A DNA stretch of 64,000 bases from Pyrinomonadaceae bacterium. Its GTDB lineage: Bacteria; Acidobacteriota; Blastocatellia; Pyrinomonadales; Pyrinomonadaceae. A program made the translations under genes and the position numbers. Under the pieces are notes generated by a model. That model made no database searches. It saw only the letters and a list, made by a program, of their open reading frames with translations, and was not told the DNA's origin. Below are positions 7,145 to 61,569 of the stretch, piece by piece (within the stretch, counting starts at the first letter, position 1; the number at the start of each line of letters is the position of its first letter). Where the stretch lies: contig JAJQRF010000004.1 of NCBI GenBank assembly GCA_021228405.1, positions 248,001 through 312,000 of the forward strand, given 5' to 3'.

Positions 7145-7882
7145 ATCTTTTTAACCTCCATTTAGTTTCGTGAATTTTAAGCCTCCCCCCGAAGCCGACG
7201 GTCACGGCGACCGCCTGTTCTGAAATTCATACTTCGGGAAACTGCTCTTTTTATAAATCCGTTTATTTTTCTTGTCAATACACTTTTAATTATAAAAATA
7301 ACCATTAAATAACAATGATTTTCTTTTGTTGATTTATAAGAATTTAGCTTTGCGGTTTTTTGAAAAAAATTATCCCTAAATATAAAAAAAATTCGCAAAC
7401 ATTAAAAACCGATAACGCAATCAAGGAGCGCGTAAGTTATCGAAATATATCTGAAAAGGTGCTGAAATAGAAAAAATCCGAAGAGTTTGTCAATAAATGT
7501 TTACATAACTGAAAATGACCCGTAAATACTTGAGAATTATCGTTTAATTAACTGTAAACATATGAAAATTGGATATTTAAGTAACTAAATAATTAAGGAA
7601 AACCTGTAACTATTGCTTTCAAAGTTGCAGGTTTTCCTTAATTATCTGTAAGTAGTTAAAGAAAACCTGCAAGTAATTAAAAGAAAGTTGCAAGTAATTA
7701 AGGAAAACCTCCAACTATTGCTTTCAAATCTTCAACTTTCTTTTAATTACTTGCAGATTTGAAAGCAATAGTTGGAGGTTTGAAGCGATTAGTTACAGGT
7801 TTAAAGAGTTAATTTGTCTGAAATTATTCATTCGACATTGATATTTAAATTTATTTATCGAGTCTGAAGTATTATTTATTTA
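7145..7882. other. 738-bp gene-free region containing a 21-bp repeat array
   Basis: This AT-rich gap lies between the start of the minus-strand gene ending at 7144 and the stop of the beta-helix gene at 7883. Its right half is the 21-bp array described separately. In the left half (7145-7586) I see only low-complexity AT-rich sequence and no convincing gene. It probably includes the promoter of the gene at 6776-7144. Confidence 0.7.
7587..7817. repeat. Array 1: eleven consecutive 21-bp units with palindromic junctions
   Basis: The sequence divides without gaps into eleven 21-bp units starting at 7587, 7608, 7629, 7650, 7671, 7692, 7713, 7734, 7755, 7776 and 7797. Unit junctions carry related palindromic cores such as CCTGC/AAGT, GTTGC/AAGT, GTTGC/AGGT, CTTGC/AGAT, GTTGG/AGGT and GTTAC/AGGT. 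Units appear in both orientations, giving perfect inverted repeats of 16, 22 and 26 bp inside the array. Stop codons interrupt several frames, so coding is not the explanation. Confidence 0.85.
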
Positions 7883-14963: not shown

Positions 14964-15040
14964 ATTTGCCTTTTCGGGTAATTGCTGAAAAAACTGATTG
15001 GTTACGGCTTTTTTACAGTATTTATGCTGATTACAATCGG

Positions 15041-15220
15041 CAAATATAACGTTACATTTGATGAAAACAGCGGGAATTTGGCAAATGTAACGTTACATTT
15101 GCCAAATTCCGCGGGAATTTGACGAATGTAACGCAGCAATTGATAAATGTAACGTTACATTCGCTGACTGTAAGCATACATTTGCCGATTGTAAGCATAC
15201 ATTTGAGGAATGTAATAACT
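15041..15220. repeat. Array 2: nine palindromic sites spaced 20.5-21 bp
   Basis: Palindromic centres fall at about 15050.5, 15071, 15091.5, 15112, 15132.5, 15153.5, 15174.5, 15195.5 and 15216.5. The fullest cores read AATGTAACGTTACATT; others are the related AAATTCCGCGGGAATTT and TGTAAGCATACA. Centre-to-centre spacing is 20.5 bp in the first half and 21 bp in the second. The words differ entirely from arrays 1 and 3, but the period and unit number agree. Confidence 0.85.
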
Positions 15221-60136: not shown

Positions 60137-60589
60137 ATGAAGAAAATATTCCCCTTTTTTACACTTTTGCTTTTCGCATTTGCGATTAATACATTCGCGC
60201 AAAAAGCTCCGGCTGATTACAAAATTACAAACATCAAAGTCGTTCCGTTCGAGCAAATGACGGGCGAATTTGAAGCTGAGATAACCGACACCGATGAACG
60301 CAGTTTCTTTAACGATCTCGGCAAAGGTTTGTTCGTGACCGTTGAAATTACAGGCAAATCAGGCGATTATGCCGGAACGCGCAATCTCGACGTAACCGTT
60401 TTGGAAGGCAAAAAGGTCAAACTGAAAAAATCGCTGATGTCGGGCATTTTGAACGAAAACGGCAAGTATTATTTCGGTTTCTACGTCGAACCCGCGCTCT
60501 GCGATACGGTCACGATCACCGCCAAAATCACGGGTCAAAAAACGCCCGGAACGAAATCACGAAAAATTCAATTCGTGTGCGGCGAATAA
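60137..60589 (+). CDS. Small secreted protein of unknown function
   Basis: A 150-residue protein with a signal peptide (about 1-21, FTLLLFAFAINTFA) and a mature part of about 128 residues predicted as an all-beta sandwich (alternating strands such as KITNIKVVPFEQMTGEFEAEI and KYYFGFYVEPALCDTVTI). It has two cysteines near the C-terminus (LCDT, QFVCGE) that could form a disulfide. No domain family is recognised. A single-gene unit followed by a strong terminator. Confidence 0.7.
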   Translation: MKKIFPFFTLLLFAFAINTFAQKAPADYKITNIKVVPFEQMTGEFEAEITDTDERSFFNDLGKGLFVTVEITGKSGDYAGTRNLDVTVLEGKKVKLKKSLMSGILNENGKYYFGFYVEPALCDTVTITAKITGQKTPGTKSRKIQFVCGE

Positions 60590-60608
60590 AAATTACTTTC
60601 GGAAATAA

Positions 60609-60645
60609 TAAAAAGGCTTGCAGAATTTAATTGCAAGCCTTTTCT
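60609..60645. terminator. Intrinsic terminator
   Basis: AAAAGGCTTGCA (60611-60622) and TGCAAGCCTTTT (60632-60643) form a 12-bp perfect stem, 20 bp past the stop at 60589. Confidence 0.9.
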
Positions 60646-60650
60646 CTGAG

Positions 60651-60684
60651 GTTCAGAGTTCAAGATAAATCTTGAACTCTGAAC
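60651..60684. repeat. Perfect 16-bp stem hairpin built of heptamers
   Basis: GTTCAGAGTTCAAGAT and its exact complement are separated by AA. Its words (GTTCAGA, GTTCAAG) have a 7-bp period, like the other heptamer blocks. Confidence 0.85.
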
Positions 60685-60753
60685 GCGTCTTTCATTCACA
60701 AAACCAAACAATCATCGACGCTTTATACCGACTGACAAATTGTCGCATTTTTT

Positions 60754-60942
60754 GCAGAAAAGTTTTCTGCACTTGCAGAATTTATTTCTGCGATCGCAAA
60801 AAAGTTTTCTGCGACAGACGGAAATATTTCTGCACTCGCAAAAAAGTTTTCTGCAACTGACAAAAACATTTCTGCACTCGCAGAAAACATTTCTGCGGCT
60901 GCAAAAAACATTTCTGCGGCTGCAAAAAACATTTCTGCGAGC
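60754..60942. repeat. Array 3: nine exact 21-bp units with TTTCTGC-N4-GCAGAAA cores
   Basis: Units begin at 60754, 60775, 60796, 60817, 60838, 60859, 60880, 60901 and 60922, each exactly 21 bp with no insertion or deletion. The pattern is GCARAAAA, two variable bases, TTTCTGC and four variable bases (ACTT, GATC, GACA, ACTC, AACT, ACTC, GGCT, GGCT, GAGC). Each unit is a near-palindrome. The last units are almost identical (GCAAAAAACATTTCTGCGGC), while the first ones are diverged. Confidence 0.9.
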
Positions 60943-60986
60943 CGTTTTACTTAAAATTTATCGAGGGAAATTAGGTTAGATTGAAT

Positions 60987-61025
60987 AAAAACTCCCCTCC
61001 TTAAAAAAGGAGGGGAGTTTTTTTA
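60987..61025. terminator. Strong bidirectional intrinsic terminator
   Basis: AAAAACTCCCCTCC and GGAGGGGAGTTTTT form a long GC-rich stem with A- and T-runs at both ends. It ends the mog operon on the minus strand. Confidence 0.92.
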
Positions 61026-61080
61026 GTTTCATTTAATATTGTGTGAGTGCTTATGTCTTTGGTTAGCGAATTTGTCTTTA

Positions 61081-61569
61081 TTAATGCGTTGTTTTCCCTT
61101 CCAAAAGATTAACAGCGTGATTCAGAACGGGTTTGAGAACCTCGAAACATTCCGTCACGCCTTTCGGCGAACCGGGCAGATTTATGATTAAAGTATTATT
61201 CCGAATGCCGCAAACACCGCGTGAAAGTATCGCTTTCGGATTGATTTTTGCCGTTTCGTAACGCATCGCTTCGGCTAATCCGTTGGCTTCCTTTTCGATC
61301 ACGGCGCGGGTCGCTTCGGGCGTATTGTCGCGCTTTGCAAAACCCGTTCCGCCCGTCGTGACAATTAAATTTACGTCTTCGCGTTCGGTCAGAGTGTAAA
61401 GCGTGTTGCGCAAATCTTCAAAATCGTCCGAAACGATAATTTTTTCCTGAACCTCCGCGCCGTAAGTAATCAACAAACCGCGCAAAGTTTCGCCCGAAAC
61501 GTCGGTTTTTTCATCACGCGAATCGCTCACGGTGACGACGATCGCTTTAATCTTGGAATTTTCAGACAT
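61081..61569 (-). CDS. mog: Molybdopterin adenylyltransferase-type protein (MogA/MoaB family)
   Basis: A 162-residue protein of the MogA/MoaB family, which adenylylates molybdopterin in molybdenum-cofactor synthesis. Motifs are VTVSDSRDEKTDVSGETL at the start, LIVTTGGTGFAKRD (the substrate loop with TGGTG) and IINLPGSPKGVTECFEVL. Length is normal for the stand-alone form. It overlaps the upstream CoA-binding gene by eight bases. No other moa or moe gene is in the window, so MogA versus MoaB cannot be decided. Confidence 0.9.
   Translation of the reverse strand: MSENSKIKAIVVTVSDSRDEKTDVSGETLRGLLITYGAEVQEKIIVSDDFEDLRNTLYTLTEREDVNLIVTTGGTGFAKRDNTPEATRAVIEKEANGLAEAMRYETAKINPKAILSRGVCGIRNNTLIINLPGSPKGVTECFEVLKPVLNHAVNLLEGKTTH

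Follow-up and report, generated by a model that had tools for sequence, protein, structure and literature searches.

REP/BIME elements are intergenic palindromic repeats associated with Y1 transposases, and heptanucleotide STRR repeats are short tandem noncoding repeats. The arrays described here resemble the former in being intergenic palindromes and the latter in being short, tandem and noncoding, and heptad arrays also occur in the bacterial family studied here; we know of no fixed 21-bp lattice in REP/BIME elements. Tandem repeats of constant size (20–21 nt) are reportedly the subject of an earlier paper by Subirana and Messeguer (J Bacteriol, 2020).

In a further article by the same authors (PMC8161180), as far as its accessible text goes, bacterial tandem repeats of constant size (20–21 or 52 nt) and variable sequence are described; the 20–21-nt repeats are generally noncoding, occur in many bacterial groups and have an unexplained function, for which a polymerising nucleoid protein or a small RNA is proposed and the length of two helical turns is remarked upon. 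In the 52-nt class of that article, short sequences and their reverse occur within one repeat. The parS sites of pSM19035, which are partition sites bound by ribbon-helix-helix proteins, are likewise made up of short repeats, direct or inverted, that adjoin one another, and their contiguity is needed; according to the accessible part of that report (PMC9499535), however, they consist of 7-bp units of one defined sequence at six plasmid sites, whereas the arrays considered here have 21-bp units of unrelated sequences and are found chromosome-wide.

We analysed a 64,000-nucleotide stretch of a Pyrinomonadaceae genome (G000), hereafter the window, which contains three arrays of 21-bp units, and we focus on the third, array 3. 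Like the repeats of PMC8161180, the present arrays have units of 20–21 bp, are mostly noncoding, form several families per genome, keep their size and are species-specific. They differ in one respect: the accessible text states, although not as a definition of the class, that most arrays of a species have a short sequence in common, whereas no such sequence was found in 30 arrays here. The present arrays thus fit the published class except for the common short sequence and are a dense fresh instance, with sharper signatures, of a class that is itself known; statistics on dyads, clustered conservation and lattice-keeping reversals set them apart from the description accessible in that article. 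The view of the initial annotation that no named element class fits is therefore not supported. A literature search on such arrays in Acidobacteria or Blastocatellia, or on 21-bp palindromic arrays, found no paper on the class among the matches listed.

The array 3 locus and its second copy

When its units are read in register, array 3 occupies positions 60752–60940, two bases away from the span at which it was originally placed (60754–60942), and it consists of nine contiguous 21-bp units without a length slip, as had been described. Each unit is laid out as 7+3+7+4 bp. The TTTCTGC half-site is present in 9/9 units, but GCARAAA is exact in only 6/9 (the deviating units start at 60773, 60815 and 60857), so that calling the palindromes 'perfect' was an overstatement. 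Identity at lag 21 reaches 0.786 over 84 bp, compared to a maximum of 0.536 across lags 10–60 in 30 simulated 64-kb windows; the array is real and well above chance expectation. Tandem Repeats Finder reports periods of 21 and 42, with 2–5% indels in its own consensus alignments. The nine units exceed a threshold of at least four tandem units of 20–21 nt and, being contiguous, lack the unique spacers between repeats that mark a CRISPR array. The features of the window are collected in Table 1.

Table 1. Arrays of the window and features of the array 3 locus (window coordinates)
Feature	Position	Strand	Description
Window array 1	7581..7832	.	12 units of 21 bp, 62% identical to their consensus; of the same class; stop codons in each of the six frames
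Window array 2	15030..15219	.	Same class; palindromic GTAACGTTAC core; 15115–15219 strictly 21 bp; 41-bp step near start
150-aa protein gene	60137..60589	+	Flanking gene; no Pfam match
Terminator-like hairpin after 150-aa gene	60611..60643	+	Holds TTGCAGAATTTA, also present in array unit 2; by eye
Leader, 52 bp	60700..60751	.	Common to second genomic copy (G000:C4); holds GACAAATTGTC palindrome; BLAST alignment of both copies starts at 60700
Open frame, 69 aa, across array 3	60723..60932	-	Judged not coding
Array 3	60752..60940	.	Nine contiguous 21-bp units, GCARAAA-3-TTTCTGC-4
Tail (GCCGTTTTACTT)	60941..60952	.	Short, partly common to second copy; read by eye
Terminator-like hairpin with T/A runs	60987..61022	.	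Between array 3 and MogA-like gene; hairpin scan
MoCF_biosynth gene (MogA/MoaB-like)	61081..61569	-	Flanking gene; Pfam

The flanking genes are indeed convergent. Of the two terminators between which the array had been placed, the one on the MogA side was recovered by the hairpin scan, while the other was recognised by eye and is absent from the scan output, its loop of 9 bases lying outside the allowed 3–8. Within this second hairpin, positions 60618–60629 (TTGCAGAATTTA) are identical to the start of array unit 2 (60773) over 12 bases.

A search of the genome with array 3 and its leader returned only two copies. The second, copy B, lies at 188070 on contig C4, is 78% identical over 243 aligned bases and has 11 units, one of them of 20 bp. 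Copy B (L002:1914-2228) adjoins a PemK/MazF-like toxin gene, and the next small gene is a possible antitoxin. A leader and array common to two loci could mean that both moved together as a dispersed non-autonomous element, for instance by a Y1 (REP-type) transposase; several array families recur, and the genome has nine matches to Y1 transposases. We nevertheless consider such movement improbable, as there are only two copies of array plus leader, and neither a terminal repeat nor a target duplication is visible by eye. Moreover, across 16 genomes, in which arrays are known from samples, the presence of arrays does not track Y1 transposases as it would for REP/BIME elements (there are 0 matches in G106, which has an array, and 21 in G049, where 40 kb showed no array), and we rejected a Y1 transposase as the mover of the arrays.

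Since 21 is divisible by 3, we also considered that the array encodes a heptad peptide. The minus strand of array 3 has an open frame of 69 aa with a counterpart of similar sequence (62 aa) in copy B, and the plus strands of both copies, as well as an open frame in a Verrucomicrobia metagenome-assembled genome (MAG), give similar SATAK-like heptapeptides, although the search pattern that found the MAG forces much of this likeness. However, the 26 differences between the two copies (8 unit pairs, matched by order) fall 7/10/9 by codon position, the 20-bp unit of copy B shifts the frame, and Pfam gives no match for the 69-aa frame. Window array 1 has 3–7 stops in every frame, in agreement with the initial annotation, which had noted its closure by stops and had not favoured a peptide. 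We therefore class array 3 and window array 1 as noncoding and regard a coding repeat as highly improbable.

Period-21 arrays across the genome

A repeat scan of 852 kb of G000 yielded 35 arrays with a period of 21 bp, 5 of 20 bp, 2 of 19 bp and none of 22 or 23 bp, so that array 3 is one of many. A scan of 452 kb of the same genome yielded 18 period-21 arrays and none of period 22, compared to zero period-21 arrays in its order-2 Markov control. Removal of 6 coding-like or heptad-type arrays from the 35 left 29, which corresponds to a density of 34–41 per Mb (29 to 35 arrays per 852 kb); extrapolation from these stretches, which were not randomly chosen, gives a genome total near 200. In the statistics on spacing, clustering, dyads, pairing and spectra, 11 of the 51 arrays of our catalogue (six from G000, five from the relative G029) were left out as coding-like or heptad-type by judgement, and long open frames are present also in some of the retained arrays (37, 41, 43, 47 and 50). 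Window arrays 1 and 2 fall within the 21-bp set together with array 3, in line with the proposal that the three are of one kind. Fourteen period-14 (heptad-type) rows were seen alongside the 21-bp arrays in the 852 kb sampled, and on contig C19 the gaps from array to array range from 2 to 59 kb.

One genome holds several families of equal length and different sequence among its 35 period-21 arrays (29 after the removals), and a few array families recur in the catalogue. In 30 arrays, a set from which three family duplicates had already been left out, no 5–7-mer was common to more arrays than in the best of 60 column shuffles (for k=5, both reach 5), which makes it unlikely that one sequence-specific protein serves all arrays. 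A partition centre, which had been suggested for array 3, is unlikely because arrays of unrelated sequence recur ∼35–40 times per Mb.

Arrays are enriched in convergent gaps, which make up 9/30 of the gaps with an array but 19/202 of the array-free gaps (P = 0.004, with genes called by a simple codon score); by the share of intergenic bases, the enrichment has P = 0.009.

Length, symmetry and phase of the units

To the initial annotation, common base changes at a fixed length suggested that the period itself is conserved, and this is borne out by the 29 arrays of G000. Their units are ∼76% identical to consensus (∼24% divergence), but of their 236 parsed spacings 232 measure exactly 21 bp and the other 4 measure 20 bp, a slip rate of 1.7%. 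Simulated arrays with 24% divergence, passed through the same detection and parser, slip at 4.6% of spacings with 1 indel per 50 substitutions and at 10.6% with 1 per 20. The parser split arrays at weak units, so that a few slips, such as the 41-bp step of window array 2, go uncounted, a bias that the simulation has as well. Mean identity in 37 of 39 arrays of period 20–21 (two heptad arrays were left out) is 0.56, 0.54 and 0.51 at lags 21, 42 and 63, and 0.25–0.26 at lags 7, 10, 11 and 14. An origin from heptads of the STRR type was rejected on the lack of a lag-7 or lag-14 signal in these 37.

Across 40 arrays, conserved columns are clustered inside the unit (Stouffer z 9.7). Dyad symmetry, as originally claimed for array 3, is real: 17/40 arrays exceed column shuffles at P < 0.05 (Stouffer z 9.9), and clustered conservation is found too in 20 arrays without significant dyads. 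The spectral power of conservation lies in 21-bp and 10.5-bp components, of which the latter is only ∼2.4 s.d. over a smoothness-matched null (0.215 versus 0.161). Three or more reversed motif copies are present in 18 arrays; the copies keep a single phase in 11 of these and occupy two or three neighbouring phases in 7, which include array 3 (7/8 reversed copies in one phase). A single phase is automatic if units are palindromic; it carries information where forward units alternate with reversed ones, which is the case in arrays 8 (8/8), 14 (6/6) and 25 (4/4), in which reversed copies in a single phase have forward units between or around them.

Two further arrays were inspected by eye. In L151:3171-3460 (contig C18), units seem flipped in place, with CGAG versus CTCG arms, like a repeated inversion of the inner 13 bp. 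In L026:16493-16726 (contig C19), unit dyads surround an ATAT core, and the half-sites form a small set of variants that occur in either half, as if exchanged at the centre.

Palindromic units might instead act as RNA, if the array were transcribed to a long hairpin that works as an RNA sponge, a protein sponge or a 3′-end element. Compared with shuffles, array 3 folds much better on either strand (z −7.3 and −9.9), and 52-nt satellites of B. coagulans are transcribed, according to the accessible text of PMC8625621. Strong folding is, however, expected of any palindromic array, and loops need not hold length. In 18 palindromic arrays, pairing, which we tested within units only, is not in excess (Stouffer −1.6; single arrays z −3.5 to 2.7, the highest being array 47 of G029), and a bias of G-U versus A-C mismatches is insignificant in 17/18 and present in 1/18. 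For 60590–61090, Rfam gave 53 matches with E up to 1, none of them at gathering score, which speaks against a known RNA family for array 3. We thus regard a noncoding RNA as unlikely.

Distribution among relatives and origin of the arrays

We sampled 25 of 118 relatives (119 genomes in all, in which the genus of array 3 is represented by its own genome alone) and found clear 21-bp arrays in two: G029, of a different genus, with 12 period-21 rows in 340 kb, 7 of them kept, and G106, with two in 40 kb, one clear and noncoding-looking, the other coding-like. No period-21 row was found in G067 (100 kb), G020 (68 kb), G033 and G010 (60 kb each), in 40 kb each of G112, G001, G105, G092, G093, G101, G049, G056 and G019, or in G031 (39 kb), G009 (22 kb) and G030 (7 kb); arrays could go unnoticed in samples of 40 kb or less. 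Single rows at periods 42 and 63 occur in G105 and heptad-type rows in G003, G118, G100 and G066, G011 has one heptad-type and one weak row (0.60), and G007 has two coding-like rows. In G043, a 23-bp array (L133:1-160, G043:C51) suggests a different fixed period in another genus. In G029, two unlike 21-bp arrays lie head to tail (L163:3132-3681, G029:C114), the second matching the family of L118:7768 on the opposite strand.

The sequence of array 3 has no array match in the 118 other genomes and is thus species-specific within the family; a match of the leader in G067 was dismissed as a 22-bp chance match inside a gene, at the gene start. A pattern scan of wider genome contigs gave 8 stretches, with a period-21 array only in the Verrucomicrobia MAG (L033), whose sequence is partly like array 3 and was in part fixed by the search pattern. 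The 150-aa gene is matched in 16 other genomes and stands convergent beside a MogA-like gene in 11 of them, and in all 11 this gap, of 7 to 2142 bp, contains no 21-bp array. The top lag-21 identity over 63 bp in the relatives' gaps is 0.48, compared to 0.83 for array 3, by a measure for which three gaps were too short and which took in 1500 bases of the G032 gap; two loci that together span the latter show no period-21 row. Array 3 therefore seems, from these gaps, to be younger than the gene pair that flanks it. The initial annotation had named absence from close relatives as a refutation of its interpretation, and at this gap the array is absent from 11/11, a comparison across genera only.

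Such absences bear on the main rival to the reading that we prefer, according to which the arrays would be functionless products of mutation: slippage and hairpin template switching would repeatedly duplicate a unit, invert it and homogenise the copies, and the replication or repair machinery would set the unit length. The same gap without an array in 11/11 relatives, the patchy presence among genera, the lack of a sequence common to arrays beyond the null, the reversed copies inside arrays and the different unit numbers of array 3 and copy B (9 versus 11) all speak for a by-product, and convergent gaps would merely tolerate insertions. By-product formation alone, however, leaves unexplained the rarity of 1-bp indels at 24% divergence and the clustered conservation in the 20 arrays without significant dyads. 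We consider this origin possible, if doubtful.

Our best reading, which we hold tentatively, is that array 3 is a phased protein-binding scaffold. Array 3 is one of ∼35–40 mostly intergenic arrays per Mb whose units, unlike in sequence, are locked to 21 bp, or two helical turns. On one DNA face, each slot would hold a dimeric DNA-binding protein in contact with its bound neighbours; an indel would rotate the next site off that face, so that length would be kept while bases drift, and a site might be reversed inside its slot. We infer protein binding, the dimeric state and an outcome in local nucleoid structuring or insulation of convergent genes, which would not be promoter regulation. The cooperative dimeric protein or phased element put forward initially thus still gives the best reading, although no protein has been identified, and archaeal-type histones were found in 0/16 genomes. 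In favour of the scaffold are the fixed period, the clustered conservation, the dyads of many arrays, the largely lattice-keeping reversed copies, the lack of a coding signal in array 3 and the preference for convergent gaps. Counting against the scaffold, besides the missing protein, are the lack of a common k-mer, the modest 10.5-bp component, the multi-phase reversals of 7/18 arrays and the array-free gaps of all 11 relatives.

The class to which these arrays belong has been described but not explained, and G000 offers it at high density together with a measurable length constraint, clustered conservation and reversals that mostly keep the lattice. These signatures are testable and can tell the scaffold reading apart from the by-product reading, and array DNA compared with a column-shuffled or 5-bp-shifted array is a probe for finding the putative protein. 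Bacterial chromosomes of this type might carry some two hundred arrays that are unrelated in sequence but keep to the same 21-bp lattice, in whose fixed slots the sites are free to flip; such arrays might represent either a chromosome-wide scaffold that is read by DNA shape and helical phase and not by sequence, or the product of an array-making enzyme that measures length.
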